From assembly GCA_012934845.2 (NCBI GenBank), contig WNNJ02003471.1:1-64000 (forward strand): a DNA stretch of 64,000 bases. Reading direction: 5' to 3'. Every line of letters starts with the position of its first letter. The stretch's first letter is position 1. The notes under the pieces are model-generated. The model saw nothing but the letters and a program-made list of their open reading frames with translations. It ran no database searches and was not told the DNA's origin. Made by a program: the position numbers and the translations under genes. The stretch comes from Pomphorhynchus laevis (Eukaryota; Acanthocephala; Palaeacanthocephala; Echinorhynchida; Pomphorhynchidae). Of this stretch, positions 1 through 61,136 are shown one piece after another.

Positions 1-14
1 GATATATATATATA

Positions 15-67
<53 letters not shown>
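1..67. repeat. (TA)n microsatellite, left flank of satellite array
   Basis: Nearly pure TA dinucleotide run. It joins a satellite unit directly in the middle of that unit's sequence (just after the CTTAAA position), so the run seems to have replaced or grown from the unit rather than bounding it cleanly. Confidence 0.95.
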
Positions 68-70
<3 letters not shown>

Positions 71-1362
71 AGTAAGTGTTCGAATCGAGCATATTCTTCA
101 GTCTGCAAACTCTCGTCACTCCTAGACGGTCATGTAATAGCCGGCAGCCATCGTCAGTAATATGAACTATCACAAGCCGTTTCGGCTGCCTCTGTGACAT
201 TGTGAAAATGCATTTCCGACATCTAGCTTAAATTGGTGGTGGCGTTAGCTCTTAAATCCAACAATTTGCAATGCAGACCATCATAAACAACCAGATGATC
301 AAACTTTCGGATGCTTGACTGTAAGAAACCGAGATGGAGTGGATCAATTCTTTCTATGTAATCATAAAAGTTTCGTTTGAATCGGTATTGCTCGAGATTG
401 CGAATAGCAATTCTTTCCGTATCTTTAAGTAAGTGTTCGAATCGAACATATTCTTTAGTCTGCAAACTCTCGTCACTCCTAGACGGTCATGTGATAGCCG
501 GCAGCCATCGTCTATAAGATGAACTATCAAACGCCGTTTCGGCTGCTTCTGTGACATTGTGAAAATGCATTTCCGACATCTAGCTAAAATTGATGGTGGC
601 GTTAGCGCTTAAATCCAACAATTTGCAATGCAGATCATCATAAACAACCAGATGATCAAACTTTCGGATGTTTGAAAAGCATCTTACTGGCGATGGCTGC
701 CGGCTATCACATGACCGTCTAGGAGTGACAAGAGATTGCAAACTGAAGAATATGCTCGATTCGAACACTTACTTAAAGACACGCAAAGAATTGCTATTCG
801 CAATCTCGAGCTATACCGATTCAAACGAAACTCTTATGATTACACAGAAAGAATTGATCCACTCAATCTCGGTTTCTTATAGTCAAGCATCCGAAAGTTT
901 GATCCTCTGGTTGTTTATGATGGTCTGCATTGTAAATTGGATTTAAGAGCTAACGCCACCAATAATTTAAGCTAGATGTCGGAAATGCATTTTCACAATG
1001 TCACAGAGGCAGCCGAAACGGCGTGTGATAGTTCATCTTAATGACGATGGCTGCCGGCTATCACATGACCGTCTAGGAGTGATGAGAGTTTGCAGACTGA
1101 AGAATATGCTCGATTCGAACAGTTATTTAAAGATACGCAAATAATTGCTATTCGCAATCTCGAGCTATACCGATTCAAACGAAACTCTTATGATTACACA
1201 GAAAGAATTGATCTACTCAATCTCGGTTTCTTATAGTCAAGCATCCGAAAGTTTGATCCTCTGGTTGTTTATGATGGTCTGCATTGCAAATTGTGATTTA
1301 AGAGCTAACGCCACCAATAATTTAAGTTAGATGTCGGAAATGCATTTTCACAATGTCACAGA

Positions 1363-1433
1363 GGCAGCCGAAACGGCGTGTGATAGTTCATCTTACTGAC
1401 GATGGCTGCCGGCTATCACATGACCGTCTAGGA
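1363..1433 (+). ncRNA. Permuted hammerhead-ribozyme module, satellite unit A
   Basis: Three hammerhead segments occur in order. First is GGCAGCC-GAAAC (1363-1374) followed by a stem III strand (1375-1386). Second is TCTTA-CTGACGA-T-GGCTGCC (1391-1410). Third is CTATCACATG-ACC-GTC (1413-1428) followed by TAGGA (1429-1433). Stem II is GGCAGCC with GGCTGCC (7 bp). Stem III is about 14 bp with one bulged A and includes the canonical A-U and C-G pairs next to the GTC cleavage triplet. Stem I is TCTTA with TAGGA (one G-U). CTGACGA fits the CUGANGA core. Because the CTGACGA segment sits inside the stem III loop, the fold needs that segment from a neighbouring unit or another RNA. Cleavage activity is inferred only. 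Confidence 0.6.
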
Positions 1434-1717
1434 GTGACGAGATTTTGCAGACTGAGGAATATGCTCGATTCGAACGCTTACTTAAAGATACGGAAAGAAT
1501 TGCTATTCGCAATCTCGAGCAATACCGATTCAAACGAAACTATTATGATTACATAGAAAGAATTGATCCACTCAATCTCGGTTTCTTACAGTCAAGCATC
1601 CGAAAGTTTGATCCTCTGGTTGTTTATGATGGTCTGCATTGCAAATTGTGATTTAAGAGCTAACGCCACCAATAATTTAAGCTAGATGTCGGAAATGCAT
1701 TTTCACAATGTCACAGA

Positions 1718-1788
1718 GGCAGCCGAAACGGCGTGTGATAGTTCATCTTACTGACGATGGCTGCCGGCTATCACATGACCGTCTAGGA
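1718..1788 (+). ncRNA. Permuted hammerhead-ribozyme module, satellite unit B
   Basis: Same arrangement as the unit starting at 1363, with all three cores intact: GAAAC at 1725-1729, CTGACGA at 1751-1757 and GTC at 1781-1783. The CTGACGA segment of the preceding unit ends at 1410, about 307 nt upstream of this unit's GGCAGCC. A two-unit transcript could therefore close a type I hammerhead with a long stem II loop. Other units carry core changes: ATGACGA near 2105, CTGGCGA near 690 and TAGACGA on the minus strand near 512. Confidence 0.58.
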
Positions 1789-2614
1789 GTGACGAGAGTT
1801 TGCAGACTGAAGAATATGCTCGATTCGAACACTTACTTAAAGATACGCAAAGAATTGCTATTCGCAATCTCGAGCAATACCGATTCAAACGAAACTATTA
1901 TGATTACATAGAAAGAATTGATCCACTCAATCTCGGTTTCTTACAGTCAAGCATCCGAAAGTTTGATCCTCTGGTTGTTTATGATGGTCTGCATTGCAAA
2001 TTGTGATTTAAGAGCTAACGCCACCAATAATTTAAGCTAGATGTCGGAAATGCATTTTCACAATGTCACAGAGGCAGCCGAAACGGCGTGTGATAGTTCA
2101 TCTTAATGACGATGGCTGCCGGCTATCACATGACCGTCTAGGAGTGACGAGAGTTTGCAGACTGAAGAATATGCTCGATTCGAACACTTACTTAAAGATA
2201 CGCAAAGAATTGATATTCGCAATCTCGAGCAATACCGATTCAAACGAAACTCTTATGATTACATAGAAAGAATTGATCCACTCAATCTCGGTTTCTTTCA
2301 GTCAAGCATCCGAAAGTTTGATCCTCTGGTTGTTTATGATGGTCTGCATTGCAAATTGTTGGATTTAAGAGCTAACGCTACCACCAATTTAAGCTAGATG
2401 TCGGAAATGCATTTTCACAATGTCACAGAGGCAGCCGAAACGGCGTGTGATAGTTCATCTTAATGACGATGGCTGCCGGCTATCACATGACCGTCTAGGA
2501 GTGATGAGAGTTTGCAGACTGAAGAATATGCTCGATTCGAACACTTACTTAAAGATACGGAAAGAATTGCTATTCGCAATCTCGAGCAATACCGATTCAA
2601 ACGAAACTCTTATG

Positions 2615-2616
<2 letters not shown>

Positions 2617-2679
<63 letters not shown>
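2617..2679. repeat. (TA)n microsatellite, right flank of satellite array
   Basis: Pure TA run of about 60 bp that begins inside the last satellite unit, at its TATGATTA position. It mirrors the TA run at the left edge of the array. Confidence 0.95.
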
Positions 2680-2685
<6 letters not shown>

Positions 2686-2688
2686 AAA

Positions 2689-2746
2689 AGTAGTTTATTA
2701 AGCAGCTAAGAAAGTTTAAACTTTCTTTGCTGCTTAATAAACTACT
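2689..2746. repeat. Near-perfect 29-bp inverted repeat (hairpin)
   Basis: The left arm (2689-2717) and right arm (2718-2746) are reverse complements with almost no spacer, meeting at AGTTTAAACT. One base differs. The hairpin lies between the satellite array and the hammerhead palindrome. The following stretch, 2747-2910, has no convincing gene. Confidence 0.85.
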
Positions 2747-3098
2747 TACAATGCTGATGAAGGTTTAAGAACCGAAACGTTCGAATATTAAAACTTTTTG
2801 TTGATTGGTGTTAATAAGATACTTTTACAATATCTAAATGAACGATCCTACGAGGATCACACCCGAAAGTCCCATGCTAGATAACATATATATCACTATT
2901 TATTATATATAATTTGTTGTTACACCAGACCTGGAACAAACCGATGTAATCAAAAATCGCTGGTTTCCCCATAGGAAGGCATAAAACTGACAACATTATA
3001 TTTATCTTCATCACACCAAGAAATAGAACCGAATATTCTCGCAATATTCAAAGTCTCTACGTATGCCCAATCATCTTATGTGACGTATACTTAAACGG

Positions 3099-3138
3099 CA
3101 GCAGACGTGTTTCGCTCTAACTTAGCTCATCAGTACTG
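3099..3138 (-). ncRNA. Type I hammerhead ribozyme (copy 1)
   Basis: Read on the minus strand: CAGTA (stem I), CTGATGA core (3133-3127), stem II GCT...AGC, GAAAC core (3113-3109), AC, GTC cleavage triplet (3106-3104), then TGCTG (stem I). CAGTA pairs fully with TGCTG (four Watson-Crick pairs and one G-U). The canonical G10.1-C11.1 pair closes stem II. The two-base-pair stem III is typical of minimal hammerheads that work as dimers, as in newt satellite 2 and Penelope-like elements. All invariant core bases are present, so this copy may be active. Confidence 0.8.
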
Positions 3139-3546
3139 TGAGTACAATAATCATCCATAGGCACTTTTACACATGCTTAATCAATGTTCAAAGTCGAAAA
3201 GCAGAACTATCCTTAATCTGAATCCTCAGAGAGAATTTCGCACGCGTTTTGTGCATGGCAGTGCGTCTTGCACTTTAACCATGCATCAAACACTAAATTC
3301 CATGTAATAGAAATGGTATTTGCAAGGATACATTCAAATGTACAAATATAAAATATATAATTTGTTGTTACACCTGCCCGGCACCACCGGTGTACTCATA
3401 AATAAATAACGTTTTTCCATATAAGGAGCCCTAAACACCAGGCAGCATTCTATTTATCCTCAGCAGGCAAAGAAATATCATCGATTTTTCGCTACAGTCG
3501 CTACGCATGCCCAGTTATTATATGTGTAATAACAAACTTTAACAAC

Positions 3547-4040: not shown

Positions 4041-4080
4041 CAGTACTGATGAGCTCCTTTCGAGAGAAACGCGTCTGCCG
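4041..4080 (+). ncRNA. Type I hammerhead ribozyme (copy 4)
   Basis: CAGTA (4041-4045), CTGATGA (4046-4052), stem II GCTC...GAG, GAAAC (4066-4070), GCGTC (4071-4075) and TGCCG. The string ACGCGT around stem III is self-complementary, the arrangement that lets two minimal hammerheads pair through a doubled stem III. Stem II ends in A instead of C before GAAAC, and stem I has one A-C mismatch, so activity may be lower than copy 1. Confidence 0.75.
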
Positions 4081-6385: not shown

Positions 6386-8530
6386 TGAATGAAACAAGAT
6401 TAATGTCAACAAGGAACAAAAGTGGAGACAAGGGACAACCCTGACGAGGCCCAACGCCTATTGGAAATAATTCAGACTTCCTACCTAGAACACGAACACA
6501 ACTTATACTTTGTTCATACAGAAAAGCCACAGCTACCCGAAGATAGTGTTTTAATCCATACTCCCTTAGTACTTTCGACAACCTCTCTCACGGAACTCGG
6601 TCGAACACCTTCTCTAAATCTACAAAGCACATGCGGATTTGTTGAGCGAACACCCAAGACCGCTCGATGATACTTGATAGAGTAAAAATCTGATCCGTAG
6701 TTCTACGACCTGGACGAAAGCCGCATTGTTCCTCTTGAAACTGTCCCTTAACTATAGGCCGTATCCTTAACTCAAGAATCCTAGCAAATAGCTTACCAGT
6801 TTGGCTAATAGGAGTGATGCCCCGATTATTGGAGCACACTTTCCGGTCACCTTTATTAAGATCGGTACCACCACTTCGGTTCGTCACTCACTAGAAACCT
6901 TGCCCGACATCAATGCAACGTTGAAGATCTGTGTTAGTCACTTCATGCCAACAACGTCGAAATCCTTTAAAGCTTCAGGTCGAATATAGTCTACTCTAGA
7001 AGACTTGCTATTACCAAGTTTTTTTTAACAACAGCGGTGACCTCTTCCAAAGATATGAGCTCTTCCGTTGGTTCTAAATGCTCTACTTCTACAAGAGAAG
7101 ACAGATCCACCGGATTAAGAATACTCCTAAAATGCTCTTTCCAATAATCAAGAATTTCTAAAAATGTCAGTCATCACAGACCCCATCTTGTCATATACAG
7201 TTTGAAAGTTTCTGCTTTCAAACACGAAGGTTCCTAATCGTCTTCCAGAACATCTTCGAAGCTGACCTATAATCAAGTTCTAAGTGCTATCCAAACTTCT
7301 CCCAAGCCGCCTTCTTTGCTTCGTTAACTGCTCGAGCTGAAGATCTCTTTGCCTTTCGGTATTTGTCTACAGCCACCACTAATCTATCTGACAAAGTTGC
7401 CTTATAAGACAGCTTCCTCTGTTGGACAGAATCTCTAACTGTTGGTGTCCATCAAGCAGTTCGAGTAATTCCTCTGCGACGAGCACCTAAAAGCCTTCAA
7501 CCCATAATTTTTCACAGTTGCTTTAACAAGCAAGGATCTGAACATCTCCCATTTCTAATCAATGCTCTTTACCTCTTCTGGCAACCGAGAAAAGTCATCC
7601 CGGATGTAACAGAAAAACGTTCTTTGACAGACACATCTGCTAGATGCTCTCAGCACGCCCTCACACAACGTGTTCGTTTACCAGGCTTGTCTAGCATCTG
7701 ATTCTGCCATCAAAGTTTACTAACTACAAGATAGTGATTGGTTAACAGATCAATCCTCTCTTCGCACGAGTGTCAAGAACATAACGTCGCAGATCAGATA
7801 AAACACTTACAAAATCGATTTTCGAATAAGAGAATCCTGATGTCATGTACACCTATGGATCTCCTTATGTTCAACATTGTATTAGTTATGCACAAATTGT
7901 TAAGAGAACAAAAGTGCAATAATCCAACACCACTCGAATTCAGATCGGAGACTCCGTTCCTCCCCGACACTCCCTTCTAAGTGCTACTGTCGCTACCAAC
8001 ATGAGCATTGAAGTCATCCAATAGGACGAGGGAATCTCTCAAAAAAGTACTATCAAACAGGGCATGAAGATCTTCCACGAAGACTTTGTATTTCAAGATA
8101 ATGTCGTGAGCGTACGCACACACAACAATTATCTCACTTCACTCTTTGACTAAAAGTATCAAAGACGTCAGCCTTTCGTTCACTGGGTTAAACCTCTCTA
8201 CCACGAACGACTACCGGAGATATGTAAGTATTCCTAAACCCGCCCGCCATCGCTTTCAGTTGTTAACTACCGGAAAGTTCAAGGTCCAACCTTGATCTAA
8301 AAGTTTAGTTCCAGTTCCAAAATAGTGAAGTGAAGTCACTCCGACTATTTCAAGATCGAAGCGAGCCGTCTCTTAAAATAATTCTGGTTCGTTCCCAGCC
8401 TGCGAGATGACATTCCACGTTTCTACATGAAGGCTAGTCCGCTTCAGATGATTATGCTTCTTCGGCTGTCTCCGTAAAAACTGCCTGGTCACACGACATC
8501 AGACAATGAAAACTCCGGTCAGTGATGAAT
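6386..8530 (-). mobile_element. LINE family C 5' part (APE endonuclease + RT), decayed
   Basis: Minus-strand translation over several frames gives an APE-type endonuclease near the 5' end: VETWNV near 8420, VNERLTSL near 8185, VVCAYAHD near 8120, and a DFNAHVGS motif (usually GDFNAHVG) near 8010. A reverse transcriptase follows: NNRGITPIS, QEEQCGFRPGRRTTDQI, CFVDLEKVFDRVP (motif A, 6588-6640) and GVGPRQGCPLSPLLF (motif B, near 6440). Frameshifts and stops break it throughout, and the part after motif B is replaced by the family B fragment. The wording of the RT motifs is close to a LINE lineage widespread in fish and invertebrates. I do not assign a clade. Confidence 0.85.
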
Positions 8531-10504: not shown

Positions 10505-11095
10505 AAGGATTTACTGGAGGATTTAAGGATTTACTGGAGGATTTACTGGAGGATTTACTGGAGGATTTACTGGAGGATTTACTGGAGGATTTACTGGAGG
10601 ATTTACTGGAGGATTTACTGGAGGATTTACTGGAGGATTTACTGGAGGATTTACTGGAGGATTTACTGGAGGATTTACTGGAGGATTTACTGGAGGATTT
10701 ACTGGAGGATTTACTGGAGGATTTACTGGAGGATTTACTGGAGGATTTACTGGAGGATTTACTGGAGGATTTACTGGAGGATTTACTGGAGGATTTACTG
10801 GAGGATTTACTGGAGGATTTACTGGAGGATTTACTGGAGGATTTACTGGAGGATTTACTGGAGGATTTACTGGAGGATTTACTGGAGGATTTACTGGAGG
10901 ATTTACTGGAGGATTTACTGGAGGATTTACTGGAGGATTTACTGGATGATTTACTGGAGGATTTACTGGAGGATTTACTGGATGATTTACTGGATGATTT
11001 ACTGGATGATTTACTGGAGGATTTACTGGAGGATTTACTGGAGGATTTACTGGAGGATTTACTGGAGGATTTACTAGATGATTTACTGGAGGATA
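10505..11095. repeat. 12-bp minisatellite (GGATTTACTGGA)n
   Basis: About 49 tandem copies of a 12-bp unit, with a few units carrying GGATGA instead of GGAGGA near the right end. Because 12 is a multiple of 3 and the unit has no stop in three of its frames, frames of 213-280 codons arise: repeats of IYWR on the plus strand, and SSSK and NPPV on the minus strand. These are by-products of the repeat. No signal peptide, splice context or non-repeat domain supports a protein. Confidence 0.95.
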
Positions 11096-13050
11096 TACTA
11101 AAAAACAAAGAACACACTTGCTATCAAAGAAAAAATAGTGGTCTTTTAGTATACGGTTAAAAATATTATTACTGTTATTTATTAAAGTTCTGGAACAATA
11201 CGGCTTAAAGGTGTATGAAAAATAAACAACATAGAGCATCCGGTTAATAAAAGAGGACGAATCATTTTGTAAGGTACTAGTGACATTAAGTATGCATCGC
11301 AATTGTATTGAATAGGAAGGATTCTTAAAAGGTAAGCGAAGATTTAAAAAAAATTTAACTTTCATAACGGAAAATATCCTTTCCTATTAAAAGTAGAAAT
11401 TTTGTTAGCTCGGCGATGTATCACTACATTTTGGAATGAGAAAATATAAACTACATTGTGTGAAGTTGTTATATGTTCTTGGTCGGATCATTCTGTTTGG
11501 CGTAAATCTGTTTTGGTCACAAATTTCATGGTACAATAATCAACTAAAAATTATTTCTAATTAAATGCTAAATTTTATATTCAATATCTTCAAATGATTG
11601 GACAACTCAGTATTTCCAATTAGGTTCGAGAAAGCTTACTGAGCTAGACATTTCTTGAGACAAGACAATTGAACCCATTTGCAATGTGGACAGATTATAT
11701 TAACAACATGCAAAAATCAAAAAATCTTTTAATGAAATGCATCAGGAAATATATTGTATCTTGATATCAAATTATATAAAGAGATATAAAGTATCAAGTT
11801 CAAGAGATACTGTTCCTTCGATGATGATTACTAACGGTTTGAAGTTTAGTAAAAAATATTTATTGTTATTTTATTTTATGATATCTAATGATGTACTGTT
11901 TCTTCAATAGATTAAAAATTGATATAGTTTCTTATATCAGCAAATAAAACAAGGAAAGCAATAAGGAATTTTATCATTTATAGTTTTGGATATCTCCTTT
12001 ATTCTGGATAATGGCGAAGGCAAATATGCACGTTGAACTATTTTCGATTTAAGAAATTAAAGTACAGAAGATTGAGGAGGGAATATTCTAACAGAGCACA
12101 CTTAGTTACTTCGGATACATGTCAAATACATATAAATGCATATAAATTCTAAATGACTTTAACATATTTTAATTCAAATTTAAACATAAATTAAAATTAT
12201 AATAAATTATAATTACATATTCAAATTATAAATGTAATTTCTTAAATAAATGTTAAATTCAAAAATATATACTCCGATTTCTAAATGTCGTTTTTATTAA
12301 TTATCACTGTTAACTGCAAATAAGATTTTTGAAGATTTTAAAAATTTTTCAAAATTTAGTAGTATTTTCAAAAAATTTAAAATGTAGAAAGATTTAATTA
12401 TTTTTAAAATTGCAATATTTTAGTGAATACTAAAACCATAATCAGATTACAAATTTGTATTAAAGACTAAAAATTTTAAATATTTTTGTTATTTTTCTTA
12501 TTTTGGTTACATGAACAAAATACTGCAAATTAAAAAATATGTTTAGTTACTTCTTAAAAGAATTATTAATTATATAAGTCTAATTATATTAAAAATATAA
12601 TTATATATTCATTACATTTAAAATTATATAAAGCTATTCTTAAATATTCTTATCAAAAAATCGCTTTCAAATGTCACTTTACTTAATGTAAAATTCAAAA
12701 TCTGTTTGTTTTGTTACTAGATATCAGTGTTCTCGTTACTGCACAGAAACAGGTAAACGAACTAAAATTATTTGTAATTTTCACGATATTTTATATTATA
12801 TAAGTATTTTTATATAATATTTTTATCATAATATATCACAAATATATTTTTTATAAATCCTTCATTTCATCAAGAATTTACATTTTATATTACAATAATG
12901 ATTATTTAATAATTAGTTAATTATTATTTTTTTAAAATCGTTTTCAAATATCACTTTTCTCAAAAATCAAAATAAGTGTTTTGTTACTAGATATCTAGTT
13001 TATTTAATATGTCGGTCAATGAATAGGCATGGCAATGAAAAATAGGTAAT
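11096..13050. other. AT-rich stretch, no gene seen
   Basis: No open frame of interest and no retroelement motif. Composition becomes strongly AT-rich after about 12,150. Confidence 0.7.
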
Positions 13051-48814: not shown

Positions 48815-51108
48815 ACAAACAAATAGAAATTTATTTAATGTGGCAAATGAGTACAAGCTGTACGCTTACAAGTCCACAAACAAAAATGAAAAAGTAAAGC
48901 AGATAAATTGTTAAAATGGGATCGGATTTGTCGTTTGAAGCACTGCATGGAAGTTGATTGGCGTATATGAATGGGCAGATGATTCCATGATAGAGGAGCA
49001 GCCACCAGGAAGGAGCGGAGTCCAAAGGAGGTAGAGTAGTTTAGGACATGTAAAAGAAGGGAATTACAGGAACGCAAGGAACAGTAAACAGGACGAGAAT
49101 TATCAAGAAAAGGAAGATTGAGAAATGAAGGGGTATGAAAAGTTACAAGGCGGAAAGCAACGATAAGAAGACGAATTTGAACACGACCATAAATGGCAGG
49201 CCAATCAAGAGAAACAAGATGGTGGGATGTATGATCAAAACGACGAAGACGGAGGAGAATTCGGACGGCTGCGTTGACGATGCGTTGTAGGGGAAGAAGA
49301 GTGGATTTAGGTGAGTTGGAAAATAGACTAAGACAATAATCGAGTCTAGAAAAGAGGAGAGAAGATATTAGAGTCATACAAGAAGGGAAATCGATCAATT
49401 TATGAACTTGCCGGAGGTTGCGGAGTATCAAGGTAGATGAGCGTACTTTATCTCTAACGAAAGGTTTAAGTGAAAGTCGGTTGTCAAAATGGAAGCCTAG
49501 GCAAACGAGATTATCAACGATAGGAAGAATTGTAGAATTTAATGATACGGAGGGAGGTTCGAAGCCGAAACGTCGAGGTAGGATCCACATAATTTTGGAT
49601 TTATCAGGATTCAGAGAAAGGCGAAGGGAATAAAGATGATTGGAAATTGAGACAAGACAGTCCGAAGCGGAAACACTAAGATCGTGAATACGATAAACAG
49701 GTGCATGAGCATAGATGAGAATGTCATCAGCATATTGCATAACATGAAAGTTAAATTTATGAGAAATCGAAGACAAATCACCAAGAAGAAGAGAGAAAAG
49801 TATAGGGCCTAATACGGAGCCTTGTGGAACACCGGACGGAATGGACGAAGGATGAGAGAAAGAAGAGTTAGAATAGACGCGAAATGTACGGTTTGATAGA
49901 TATGAAGAAAACCATGATACAGTGGGTAAAGAGAAGCCATAATCATGACAAAGGCGATGGAGAAGAATCGAGTGATCGACGATGTCAAAAGCAGACGATA
50001 GATCAAGAGAAACTATGACACTACATAATTTATGATCGCGCGATATGAGTAAGTCGTTATAAACTTTAAGACATGCAATTTCGGTAGAGTAATTAGAGCG
50101 AAAAGCGGCTTGGAAGGGAGGAAATAAGTTAGAGGAATAGAGATATGTATTAACTTGCTTAAGAACGAGACGCTCAAGGAGTTTAGAGAGGGTTGGGAGA
50201 AGTGAAATAGGACGGTACGAAGATGGTAGTGAGGAGTCGAGAGATTGCTTTTTGATGAGAGGACGAACAGTGGCGCATTTCCAGATGGAAGGAAATGTAC
50301 GGCTACGGATGGACGAGTTGAACAATATGGTTAGAAAGGGTAAGATAAAGGAGCAGATATTTTTAAGCAAGTGAGTGGGAATTGGGTCATAAGGAGAGGT
50401 TTTATTAGGTAATGACATCAGAACCGAAGAAACTTCATCAGACGAAACGGGAAGAAGGTGGAATAGTTCTGGGAGGGAAGTATTTAAAGATAAGAGTGGG
50501 TACAAGGGGGCTATGGGTAGTAGGAAAAGTAAATTAGATAGCTTAGTTTGTAGATAAGAAGAAAATTCATCAGGATTTATATTACAAGGGGTAGATGATC
50601 GTGAAAGAATTGAGTTTAAGATTTTCCAATGAGATTTAGAGTTGGAAGATGACTCGAGTTGATTTCGCCAAAAGAGAGTACGTTTAGTACGTGTAAGAAT
50701 GATATGTGAACGGCGTTGAGAAAAGTAGGAATCACGAAGATTTGGAGGGAGTGAGTTGGGTGAACGTTTAAGAAAGCGTTTATACATACGAAAAGAGTGA
50801 CGGAGTCGACGCTTAGAAAGACTACAGTCAGAATCGAACCAGGGAGCATGGCGCAAGCGCTGGGAACGTCGAAGTCGACTAGTCAGAAGGTTATTGAGGA
50901 TCGACGTAAGTTCAGAATCAAACAGAATTCAGAGATCATCGGGAGAGAGATAGTTAAGAGGAAGTGAAAAGAGTGAAGAATTGAGTAAGGCTGTGCAGAG
51001 AACAGGGATATCGAGAAGCTTCCAGGGTCGACTTGGTGTAGATAAAGGTAAAGGCGGAGAAGGAGGATGGGGACGAGTAAGAGTAAGAGTGACAAGGAAA
51101 AGATCGGA
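48815..51108 (-). mobile_element. LINE family B, best-preserved copy (5'-truncated)
   Basis: From a 5'-truncated start near 51,108 (DLFLVTLTLTRPH, which matches DHFLVTLTITG of the copy at 39.8 kb) through the APE-RT linker and RT to the 3' terminus shared with the copies at 5.76, 29.17, 42.22 and 58.46 kb. Presence of many 3' ends and few 5' ends is the usual outcome of target-primed reverse transcription. Confidence 0.92.
48835..50856 (-). CDS. Family B reverse transcriptase, 673-codon open frame
   Basis: CR1/L2-type RT with all catalytic blocks: SSYRPISLLPTLSKLLERLV, FQAAFRSNYSTEIACLKV, SVIVSLDLSSAFDIVDHSIL (motif A), SGVPQGSVLGPILFSLLLGD (motif B), VMQYADDILIYAHA (motif C, YADD), followed by LRLSLNPDKSKIMW, LGFHFDNRLSLKPFVRDKV and the C-terminal SLDWPAIYGRVQIRLLIV region. 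The frame is open from residue RHAPWFDSDCSLSKRRLR to the stop at 48,835. The endonuclease is missing because of 5' truncation and a frameshift near 50,870, so it is not an autonomous element. Confidence 0.9.
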   Translation of the reverse strand: MRHAPWFDSDCSLSKRRLRHSFRMYKRFLKRSPNSLPPNLRDSYFSQRRSHIILTRTKRTLFWRNQLESSSNSKSHWKILNSILSRSSTPCNINPDEFSSYLQTKLSNLLFLLPIAPLYPLLSLNTSLPELFHLLPVSSDEVSSVLMSLPNKTSPYDPIPTHLLKNICSFILPFLTILFNSSIRSRTFPSIWKCATVRPLIKKQSLDSSLPSSYRPISLLPTLSKLLERLVLKQVNTYLYSSNLFPPFQAAFRSNYSTEIACLKVYNDLLISRDHKLCSVIVSLDLSSAFDIVDHSILLHRLCHDYGFSLPTVSWFSSYLSNRTFRVYSNSSFSHPSSIPSGVPQGSVLGPILFSLLLGDLSSISHKFNFHVMQYADDILIYAHAPVYRIHDLSVSASDCLVSISNHLYSLRLSLNPDKSKIMWILPRRFGFEPPSVSLNSTILPIVDNLVCLGFHFDNRLSLKPFVRDKVRSSTLILRNLRQVHKLIDFPSCMTLISSLLFSRLDYCLSLFSNSPKSTLLPLQRIVNAAVRILLRLRRFDHTSHHLVSLDWPAIYGRVQIRLLIVAFRLVTFHTPSFLNLPFLDNSRPVYCSLRSCNSLLLHVLNYSTSFGLRSFLVAAPLSWNHLPIHIRQSTSMQCFKRQIRSHFNNLSALLFHFCLWTCKRTACTHLPH

Positions 51109-58605: not shown

Positions 58606-61104
58606 TCAACAGAAAAAATAAATCAACAATTTCTTTGTCTTCTTCCTATTAAGGCCACAAATCAATGGGGATCTGAGCCCCCAACCAATCCAGCACGCCG
58701 CTTTCCGATTGAACCACCCGGGGTCTTTCACCTCCCGAAGAATCCAATCGGTGCGGACGATGTTGGGTAAACGAGAGACGAGGAGCTTAAGAAACCTTAG
58801 CCTTTGCTCTGGGGGACGTCCTCTTGAGAAGAAGACTAATCCCGAGATAGCCCAGGTACCCCAAAGGCGCACCTGGGTTTTCCCATTCAACGACAGATGC
58901 TGGGCCCGTTTCAGAGCCCACCTAGCTTTCTTCAGGATACGTTTGAGTCTATCCAGGTCGGCTTTCGCCGACCAGTTCACCGAAACGGTGAACCCCAGGT
59001 ATTTTACTCGACTTGTGAAGACAGGGGGTGGTTCGGATGCAAATATGGAGGAGAGCGTAGAGAGTGCTAGTCTCTTAAGTTTTTTCTTGGTTGCAGGGGA
59101 GCCATGAAAGACAACCACCTGCGATTTAGCGGAGTTTAGAATAAGGTTGGATCTAGGCAACTGGTCTTTTAATCTTAAAAAGAAGCGGCTGATGTCCGAG
59201 ACTACGTCTTTGCACCTGCGTCCAGTGAACAGGGATGTTGTGTCATCAGCGTACACTACTAGACGTTGTTCACGTTTAAATATTTTAAATAGAATAATTG
59301 AGGCAGCAAGATATAAGATTGGAGAAAGTGGTGAACCTTGAGACACACCCGTAATAGGGTAGAACTGACGCGCATCAGGGTCGTCATCATAATAAAATCG
59401 CTTGGTGTACAGCAGTATCTCCACCCTGTTAACAATTCTCGCAGGCAACCCGAGGGACCTGAGAGAAGAGATAACAAAGGGAATGGAGATGCGGTCAAAT
59501 GCAGCGGAAAAATCAAGGAAAACTGCCACAGCTAGCTGATGACTGTTCTGACAAAACTGATGCACTTCACCAACTGATGAATGGACCGAGCGACCTTTGA
59601 CAAACCCATGAAAACTCGGTGGGATCAAATTACGCCTACATAAATGAACGCGGATTCTACGCGCAAGCGCTTTTTCGTAGATCGATACGAGGGAATTTTG
59701 AATCGAAATGGGCCGCAGGTCTTTAGGACAAGAGACCGGAAACTTTTTTGGAATAAAAATTCTCTTGCTTATGTTGATGCCGGCCACATCAGATGGGGTG
59801 GCTAATTGCATTGTGATGGCCACCTCCCTTCTTTGATCGGTTGTCAAAAGCTGACAGACACGAGAAGAGAGTGGAGCGACGGTTTTGGAGGTGCTTGGAA
59901 GAGGCCCCCAGGCGTTGAGAATATCTGTGACAGATAAGTCTCTACTCCTGAAGTCTCCCCAAGGCGGGATTGGTTGCGGAGATTGAGTGGCTCCATAGTT
60001 GTGTAAGGCAAGTGACTCTTCTAAAACTTTATCAAGGCCAATTCTACCGATCCAACCCAAGGCCCTATCCCTCCAACAAGCAAACTTCTCCTTCTTGAAA
60101 ATCTTCCAAAAGGAAGACTGAGAAGGGTTAAGACGAGCAATGCTCGCCCTATCCCTACTCAGCTGGAACCAATATCTGGTGCGCCAGTATTCATTCGAGA
60201 GAGTCTGTCTGGCGGAAGAAGAGAGATTAGGGAGGTTCAGTAGTTTTGCTAGAACCTTGAGTTTCGTCGGAGTGGGATTGAAAATGCGACCTTTATAGGT
60301 TGTCGAAAGCAATGCGGTAGCTTGCGAAGAGAGGTAGGAATTAAATTCGGTTAAATTCTCATTACCAATTCGGGGGAAGCGTTGGATAGCAGCTTGGAAG
60401 AAAGCCACTCTGATCGGGTCAAAGTGGAATCTTCTCCGAAGCAGCGTATCCTCCTCTATCCGCCAGCGAATTAGATCATGAGATGTGGACAGATGCTGTC
60501 GCGACTGCTCCGTGCAGAAGGGTTTTAACAACCATCTCTCGTGGAGCAGTAATAAGTCGAGGAGTGAATTCGTTGATGTGCAATGAAATGTAGGGGACGG
60601 TGGTTTGTGAATAAGATAACCGTTCCTGGCTCTGCGGAGAGCAGCATTAATCCAACGATCAGTTCTGTCGTTGAAGTCACTTAGTACAATGTCATAGCCG
60701 CTATCGATAATACAATCCAGAAGGTCACGGTTCTTGTGAATCTCTCCTGGACGAATGTAGACGTTGGCTAGACTGAGGCGTTTACCGTTCTTAACGAGTG
60801 AAACTACTAGACAAGACAGGGCAGGACAAGAGTAATTTAGCAGGAGGGAGGACCTTAAAGAGCATTTAACTAGGGTCAAGAGTCCTTGAGATGAAGAGGA
60901 GTGAGGTGGGGTTATGTACGGAGTATAGTGGGAACAAATTTGCTTTGGGATAAATCGAGTAATGTCCTGGGGGAGACGGATATACCGCGTCTCCTGGAGG
61001 ACTATAACATCTGCGTCTCTACCAGATAAAAGTCTAAGGGCAGAAGCACCTCCCGAATTCCACTGAAGAATATTCAGTGAAAAAGGCTCAGGTTTACTCA
61101 CCAT
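58606..61104 (-). CDS. Family A ORF2: APE endonuclease-reverse transcriptase, 832 codons, uninterrupted
   Basis: Starts MVSKPEPFSLNILQWNSGGA. N-terminal APE endonuclease (residues ~1-220): NILQWN, VIVLQET, VYIRPGEI, IVLSDFNDRTDRW (usual GDFN is SDFN) and STSHDLIRW near the catalytic SDH position, which reads SHD. RT (residues ~400-650): CPKDLRPISIQNSLVSIYEK, VFLDFSAAFDRIS (motif A), ITGVSQGSPLSPILYL (motif B, S for the usual P), RLVVYADDTTSLFTG (motif C, YADD). A C-terminal region follows (WSAKADLDRLKRILKKARW). No RNase H or CCHC box was seen. The open frame suggests recent activity, but the altered endonuclease residues may weaken it. It copies LINE RNA into chromosomal DNA. Clade within the I/Jockey/R1 assemblage is not decided. 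Confidence 0.92.
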   Translation of the reverse strand: MVSKPEPFSLNILQWNSGGASALRLLSGRDADVIVLQETRYIRLPQDITRFIPKQICSHYTPYITPPHSSSSQGLLTLVKCSLRSSLLLNYSCPALSCLVVSLVKNGKRLSLANVYIRPGEIHKNRDLLDCIIDSGYDIVLSDFNDRTDRWINAALRRARNGYLIHKPPSPTFHCTSTNSLLDLLLLHERWLLKPFCTEQSRQHLSTSHDLIRWRIEEDTLLRRRFHFDPIRVAFFQAAIQRFPRIGNENLTEFNSYLSSQATALLSTTYKGRIFNPTPTKLKVLAKLLNLPNLSSSARQTLSNEYWRTRYWFQLSRDRASIARLNPSQSSFWKIFKKEKFACWRDRALGWIGRIGLDKVLEESLALHNYGATQSPQPIPPWGDFRSRDLSVTDILNAWGPLPSTSKTVAPLSSRVCQLLTTDQRREVAITMQLATPSDVAGINISKRIFIPKKFPVSCPKDLRPISIQNSLVSIYEKALARRIRVHLCRRNLIPPSFHGFVKGRSVHSSVGEVHQFCQNSHQLAVAVFLDFSAAFDRISIPFVISSLRSLGLPARIVNRVEILLYTKRFYYDDDPDARQFYPITGVSQGSPLSPILYLAASIILFKIFKREQRLVVYADDTTSLFTGRRCKDVVSDISRFFLRLKDQLPRSNLILNSAKSQVVVFHGSPATKKKLKRLALSTLSSIFASEPPPVFTSRVKYLGFTVSVNWSAKADLDRLKRILKKARWALKRAQHLSLNGKTQVRLWGTWAISGLVFFSRGRPPEQRLRFLKLLVSRLPNIVRTDWILREVKDPGWFNRKAACWIGWGLRSPLICGLNRKKTKKLLIYFFC

Positions 61105-61136
61105 TGGGCTAAATTAGTTGGAAGGGGGATGCCAAC

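Follow-up and report, generated by a model that had tools for sequence, protein, structure and literature searches.

Does a tandem repeat that contains every part of a hammerhead ribozyme, arranged in an order that is not a rotation of the normal one, encode an RNA structure that is maintained by selection and can cut itself? The question is raised by a 355-base-pair (bp) repeat of the acanthocephalan Pomphorhynchus laevis, found at the beginning of contig WNNJ02003471.1 (GenBank assembly GCA_012934845.2), of which positions 1 to 64,000 of the forward strand (hereafter the window) were analysed. The genome of this species is approximately 63% repetitive, and the main text of the genome paper mentions neither satellite, ribozyme nor Penelope (PMC7310846). 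Comparison of genomic copies showed that five related subfamilies share covarying stems I–III, an additional outer helix (helix IV), the core bases and the block order. We regard this structure, and its maintenance by selection, as well supported; self-cleavage of the RNA is likely.

The window carries a head-to-head pair of arrays, both built of one 355-bp unit, and each of them passes into a (TA)n stretch. The features of these arrays are as follows (unit 1 is the first unit with a full motif).

2–67: (TA)n end of the minus-strand array
63–675, minus strand: inverted array of the 355-bp unit, head to head with the plus-strand array (blastn)
109–203, minus strand: unit with intact CTGACGA; stems I and III altered
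680–2622, plus strand: tandem array with a 355-bp period, 5.5 copies (Tandem Repeats Finder, blastn)
1355–1359, plus strand: helix IV 5' strand GTCAC, unit 1
1363–1369, plus strand: stem II 3' strand GGCAGCC (G block), unit 1
1370–1374, plus strand: GAAAC, i.e. G12, A13, A14 and the first two bases of stem III, unit 1
1373–1386, plus strand: stem III 5' strand, unit 1
1391–1395, plus strand: stem I 3' strand TCTTA, unit 1
1396–1402, plus strand: CTGACGA core (C block), unit 1
1404–1410, plus strand: stem II 5' strand GGCTGCC, unit 1
1413–1427, plus strand: stem III 3' strand with one bulged A, unit 1
1428, plus strand: predicted cleavage position C17, cut 3' of the base, by analogy with the hammerhead core, unit 1
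1429–1433, plus strand: stem I 5' strand TAGGA, unit 1
1434–1438, plus strand: helix IV 3' strand GTGAC, unit 1
1710–1793, plus strand: second full-motif unit, 355 bp downstream, parts as in unit 1 (GGCAGCC 1718–1724, CTGACGA 1751–1757, GGCTGCC 1759–1765, predicted C17 1783)
2617–2683: (TA)n at the 3' end of the plus-strand array

In the 5' to 3' direction, the hammerhead blocks of the window units are GAAA (block G), CUGAnGA (block C) and the cleavage site (block S), a sequence of blocks that cannot be obtained by rotating the normal one. The initial annotation had already placed the segments GGCAGCC, GAAAC, CTGACGA, GGCTGCC and GTC (1426–1428) at these positions, and had them recur 355 bp further on with a predicted cleavage C at 1783; both the positions and the non-cyclic order were confirmed. 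A descriptor requiring CTGAnGA and GAAA, a stem II of at least 6 bp, stems III and I of at least 4 bp each and a span of up to 130 nucleotides (nt) was applied to both strands of the 64-kb window. It returned two assemblies, each with the order G-C-S, whereas the five alternative block orders gave no hit; 40 dinucleotide-preserving shuffles contained a mean of 0.025 G-C-S assemblies (maximum 1). CUGAnGA is intact in three of the eight window segments (2/6 on the plus strand and 1/2 on the minus strand); the minus-strand unit at 109–203 fails the descriptor despite its intact CTGACGA. When motif copies with recognisable G and S parts were extracted from the window and 20 further loci, which leaves badly decayed copies uncounted, 75 of the 125 shared one identical sequence with CTGACGA.

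The family extends far beyond the window. The window unit (subfamily A) has at least 265 matches in the P. laevis genome, and its weak matches led to diverged repeats that have mainly the ribozyme region in common with it. Five subfamilies were distinguished, with units of 355–380 bp: A (355–357 bp), B (360 bp), C1 (about 363 bp), C2 (380 bp) and D (365 bp). In a comparison of A, B, C2 and D, 20/40 and 23/40 columns were identical in the two alignment segments around the G and C blocks and 14/40 in the next one, with only 5–9/40 in the body of the unit. Patterns describing the whole motif gave 122 + 18 + 1425 + 1879 = 3444 matches in the genome (controls 1 + 0 + 0 + 0), and patterns for the G-C half gave 3402 (control 0). 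Subfamily A is mostly outside the sum of 3444 because its core reads CTGACGA. Inspection by eye indicated that 8 of the 100 listed matches of the 122-match pattern and 2 of the 18 look unrelated; for the 1425- and 1879-match patterns it covered 100 listed matches each. Both the window units and the genome-wide motif matches have their blocks in the order G, C, S that defines type GCS, and the hammerhead core (CUGAnGA, GAAA and UH at the cleavage site) is present in the representatives of all five subfamilies.

Covariation was assessed in these five representatives, each verified as a genomic sequence and aligned by hand to the structure. Standard pairs occupy 159 of the 166 cells of stems I–III and helix IV (24/25 in stem I, 30/30 in II, 74/76 in III and 31/35 in IV), compared with at most 85 when one strand was slid by 1–6 positions. 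Twelve pairs are changed on both sides (at most 4 in the slid control). Stem III contributes nine of these, and stem I, stem II and helix IV contribute a single pair each, so that stems I and II have one double-changed pair apiece as their covariation support; there are 23 further pair types (slid control, at most 11). The initial annotation had named the lack of covariation as the outcome that would speak against a ribozyme, and covariation was found in stems I, II and III. The matching changes between subfamilies suggest that evolution has kept the scrambled form folding.

Helix IV is formed by two complementary strands, one upstream of the stem II 3' strand and the other directly 3' of the 5' strand of stem I; they read ATGTCAC/GTGACAT in C, TATCAC/GTGATA in B, and GTCAC/GTGAC in A and D. 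Among 169 copies scoring at least 70 (lower-scoring ones were dropped), which form 69 distinct rows, stem III position 4 is paired in all 68 readable rows, as A-T, G-C, T-A or G-T. A bulge adjoins this position in A and B, and the bulged base in B is either C or A. In C2, a 16-nt insertion in the 3' strand of stem III possibly forms a small hairpin with a TTCG loop, and in one C2 copy (C41:20219) a matching change within this hairpin was noted by eye. In an automatic alignment of 22 rows, 89.8% of the cells were paired (26–50% when slid) and 49 cells were changed on both sides (4–9 when slid). Because MAFFT puts the stem III gap of A and B in the wrong place, and likewise the 3' strand of stem III in D, the 22-row count was restricted to nine stem III pairs; three of the five measures obtained in this way were above all 500 shuffles.

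For monomers of A, B and C1, folding predictions gave both helix IV and stem III; the latter has 14–17 bp in these subfamilies and is continuous in C1. Within a single unit, only 3–4 and 1–2 nt connect the distal end of stem III with those of stems I and II. The known hammerhead has stem II stacked coaxially on stem III, with stem I alongside stem II (PMC10085705). With a full stem III, as in A, B and C1, the gap to be bridged was estimated from A-form geometry at roughly 60 Å, which would be beyond these short links. Given its long stem III and short linkers, one unit of A, B or C1 should therefore not close on itself.

The mechanism that we favour, unproven as it is, is docking between units. 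The RNA would form a hairpin with helix IV at its base, separated by an internal loop from stem III, which an apical loop would cap. GAA, the cleavage C, the 3' strand of stem II and the 5' strand of stem I would lie in the internal loop, and CUGAnGA in the apical loop along with the strands that complete stems I and II. Since in A, B and C1 stem III is too long, and the links are too short, for an apical loop to reach the internal loop of its own unit, it would dock on that of a second unit, belonging to the same multimeric transcript or to another RNA. In the docked form, stem I would continue into helix IV with no linker and stem II into the donor's stem III with 1–2 nt between them, while two crossing strands would have 2–4 nt; the resulting four-way junction would hold stems I and II side by side. 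Helix IV is the candidate contact between these two stems, although we infer its placing in the docked form. A donor located upstream would give the order CGS (type I) and one located downstream GSC (type II), both of which are normal circular orders. Cleavage would need two units, and multimers would be cut into monomers of 355–380 nt, with monomers or monomer circles being spared. The initial annotation had proposed that folding in cis is blocked and that the CUGAnGA of a neighbouring unit restores the normal connectivity; the geometry speaks for both points, and for both it is the only support. It had overlooked helix IV, the subfamilies and the insertion pattern described below.

Analysis of the array ends suggested a link to retrotransposition. 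The survey covered subfamily A arrays in the window and the 20 loci, with pieces below 85% identity dropped. When unit positions are counted from window position 1458, 26 of the 34 array 3' ends fall at position 33 or 98, and 20 of those 26 pass into (TA)n of at least 10 nt, while the 5' ends are ragged. Five of the eight head-to-head pairs have one end of each kind and three have other ends. A Penelope protein of Anolis cuts AT-rich DNA and extends both strands, starting at two adjacent internal sites that match the genomic ends (PMC11167929). The ends of the subfamily A arrays resemble such an insertion: tandem copies, fixed internal 3' ends and AT-rich targets are traits of Penelope-like elements, and the subfamily A arrays show them. 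If multimeric or circular RNA were copied into (TA)n sites by reverse transcription of the Penelope type, arrays with fixed 3' and ragged 5' ends would result, and mobilisation might occur in trans, by a Penelope-type enzyme carrying GIY-YIG.

The unit itself does not contain the combination of reverse transcriptase and GIY-YIG that characterises Penelope elements. An open frame of about 71 amino acids lies inside the subfamily A unit (window 1430–1645) and is its longest coding-like frame. A protein origin of the unit was considered and rejected, as a Pfam search with this frame produced a single match, below the cut-off. Elsewhere in the P. laevis genome, GIY-YIG matches are present (75 reported). 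On contig C766 (positions 1–2930 of locus L099), which has two similar places of which one was examined for a link between subfamily D and an autonomous element, two D motifs are accompanied by a GIY-YIG fragment about 2 kb away on the same strand, and by an RVT_1 fragment just below the cut-off beside the motifs on the opposite strand. This arrangement hints at shared machinery. Taken together, we incline to the view that the repeats are retrozyme-like non-autonomous elements of P. laevis whose RNA carries a type-GCS hammerhead acting by docking between units. The narrower proposal, in which the ribozyme is topologically inactive within a unit and active only between units, the scrambled order, the long stem III and the four-way junction serving jointly as a test for multimers, seems to us evenly balanced. 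If it is true, monomer circles would be shielded from self-cutting, the permutation itself would be the switch, and tandem repetition would allow such an order both to arise and to be undone.

A number of observations weigh against the reading of the repeats as retrozyme-like elements with a docking ribozyme. Five of the eight window cores are damaged (three read AATGACGA, one CTGGCGA and one TAGACGA). A structural alignment made by hand can favour the structure, and in the automatic 22-row alignment two of the five measures did not exceed their shuffles, with 7 pairs changed on both sides vs 6.3 in shuffles and 17 further pair types vs 21.3. The D monomer was predicted to form helix IV and stem II, with no stem III, the prediction for C2 was mixed, and the apical loop of A, B and C1 was predicted to be partly self-paired (mean unpaired 0.55–0.58). 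Stem III is interrupted in C2 (by the 16-nt insertion) and in D (by an internal loop), and the geometric argument is therefore weaker for these two subfamilies. Finally, 8 of the 34 array 3' ends lie elsewhere, the array ends are not located at the predicted cleavage site, and no autonomous element carrying the motif was found, the examined place on C766 showing no element that contains both.

An alternative is that each unit cuts itself as a monomeric type-GCS pseudoknot in which only the stem III pairs next to the core are formed, the distal part being open or linking stems I and II, as was proposed for the bacterial GCS-1. The interrupted stem III of C2 and D makes the necessary bend conceivable. 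However, the distal part of stem III is kept and covaries, it is continuous in C1, and a full stem III would demand that the estimated 60 Å be spanned by links of 3–4 and 1–2 nt, all of which makes a monomeric ribozyme unlikely. The hairpin could also have been selected for another role, such as binding the reverse transcriptase or priming its reaction, leaving the hammerhead core as an inactive relic of an older ribozyme. A Penelope protein does begin reverse transcription in a stem loop, ribozyme cleavage is dispensable for its insertion in vitro (PMC11167929), and many copies have damaged cores; on the other hand, five diverged subfamilies have retained the core bases along with stems I–III, and the binding of a hairpin needs no stems I and II, which cross stem III. 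We consider such a relic quite improbable. A chance combination of an inverted repeat with short motifs, spread by satellite amplification, is extremely improbable. A single tandem family can amplify any accident, but shuffles average 0.025 assemblies and the same structure is written in different letters across the diverged subfamilies.

The Rfam hammerhead models, which expect the normal block order, gave no match at gathering score in the window and none in window 1–2700 at E values up to 10; at E values up to 5, the permuted motifs of four loci were not matched either. A genome scan with RF00008 gave 0 matches and was uninformative, as its 14 controls matched nowhere either. The one hammerhead match in the four loci (Rfam HH9, E value 0.0023, below the gathering score) is of normal order and lies near permuted arrays, at 7596–7673 of locus L042. 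Two further hammerhead motifs of normal order are present in the window (3104–3133, minus strand, and 4046–4075, plus strand); their stem III is very short, as reported in Penelope-like elements, and the corresponding pattern has these 2 matches, with 0 expected from 100 shuffles. Possible relatives on viral contigs were rejected: by eye, none of the eight pattern matches has three helices in the order G-C-S, and six of them (L091–L095 and L098), two of which are identical, look like normal type II hammerheads with a chance GTCTA downstream.

Other features were noted in passing. An EF-hand frame of the window matches hypothetical P. laevis proteins, the first with 84% identity across the full query and the second with 99% identity across 77% of it. 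In the window, a 12-bp minisatellite of about 50 copies (10506–11099) is open in several frames on both strands, and two frames with RVT_1 reverse-transcriptase domains (697 and 835 amino acids) are located on the minus strand at 48835–50928 and 58606–61113. Locus L050 contains a long imperfect palindrome resembling a microRNA precursor (3071–3275), which scores below the gathering thresholds.

Several known systems share parts of this design. The hammerheads of Penelope-like elements are reported to cleave as dimers and to have a very short stem III (Luense et al. 2017). That short stem would account for their dimer requirement, whereas in P. laevis the requirement would stem from a long stem III and the permuted order. 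Like the P. laevis repeats, Penelope-like elements are tandem retroelements with hammerheads, AT-rich targets and two internal 3' ends (PMC11167929); unlike them, the P. laevis unit has a permuted block order and no reverse transcriptase. The non-LTR retrozymes of metazoans are likewise tandem repeats of approximately 150–450 bp with one hammerhead per unit, and they are widespread in animals (PMC7229834); they have the normal type I (CGS) order and their RNA circles have been shown, whereas the P. laevis unit is of type GCS and known from DNA.

Eckert et al. (2023) defined six hammerhead block orders, of which SGC was validated and comprises 583 sequences, and CSG is represented by two (PMC10085705). 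These two types share with the P. laevis repeats the non-circular permutation and an extra helix joining stems I and II; they differ in their linear start and are single-copy RNAs of metatranscriptomes and metagenomes. A tandem array of G-C-S units also contains S-G-C and C-S-G across the unit borders, with the parts about 300 nt apart. The initial annotation knew of no precedent for the order, which is in fact type GCS of the same study (PMC10085705). No other report of it, also among papers from 2023 on, and no paper on hammerhead ribozymes in Acanthocephala, was found in a mainly open-access literature. What appears to be new is a covarying family, in an animal and in tandem repeats; as far as we searched, neither covariation in a type-GCS family nor an animal example of the type was reported earlier. 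The closest relative is GCS-1 of Caballeronia peredens, which has the same order and a hammerhead core. It is a single bacterial sequence that cleaves at 0.014 per min, with no covariation, and the authors called the biological relevance of the type unclear (PMC10085705). P. laevis has instead thousands of matches in five subfamilies, with covariation and in tandem repeats, so that the question of relevance becomes directly testable in an animal with a sequenced genome. The comparison suggests both a use for the permuted order, i.e. the cleavage of multimers only, and a way in which it might be tolerated, as tandem copies would restore the normal one.
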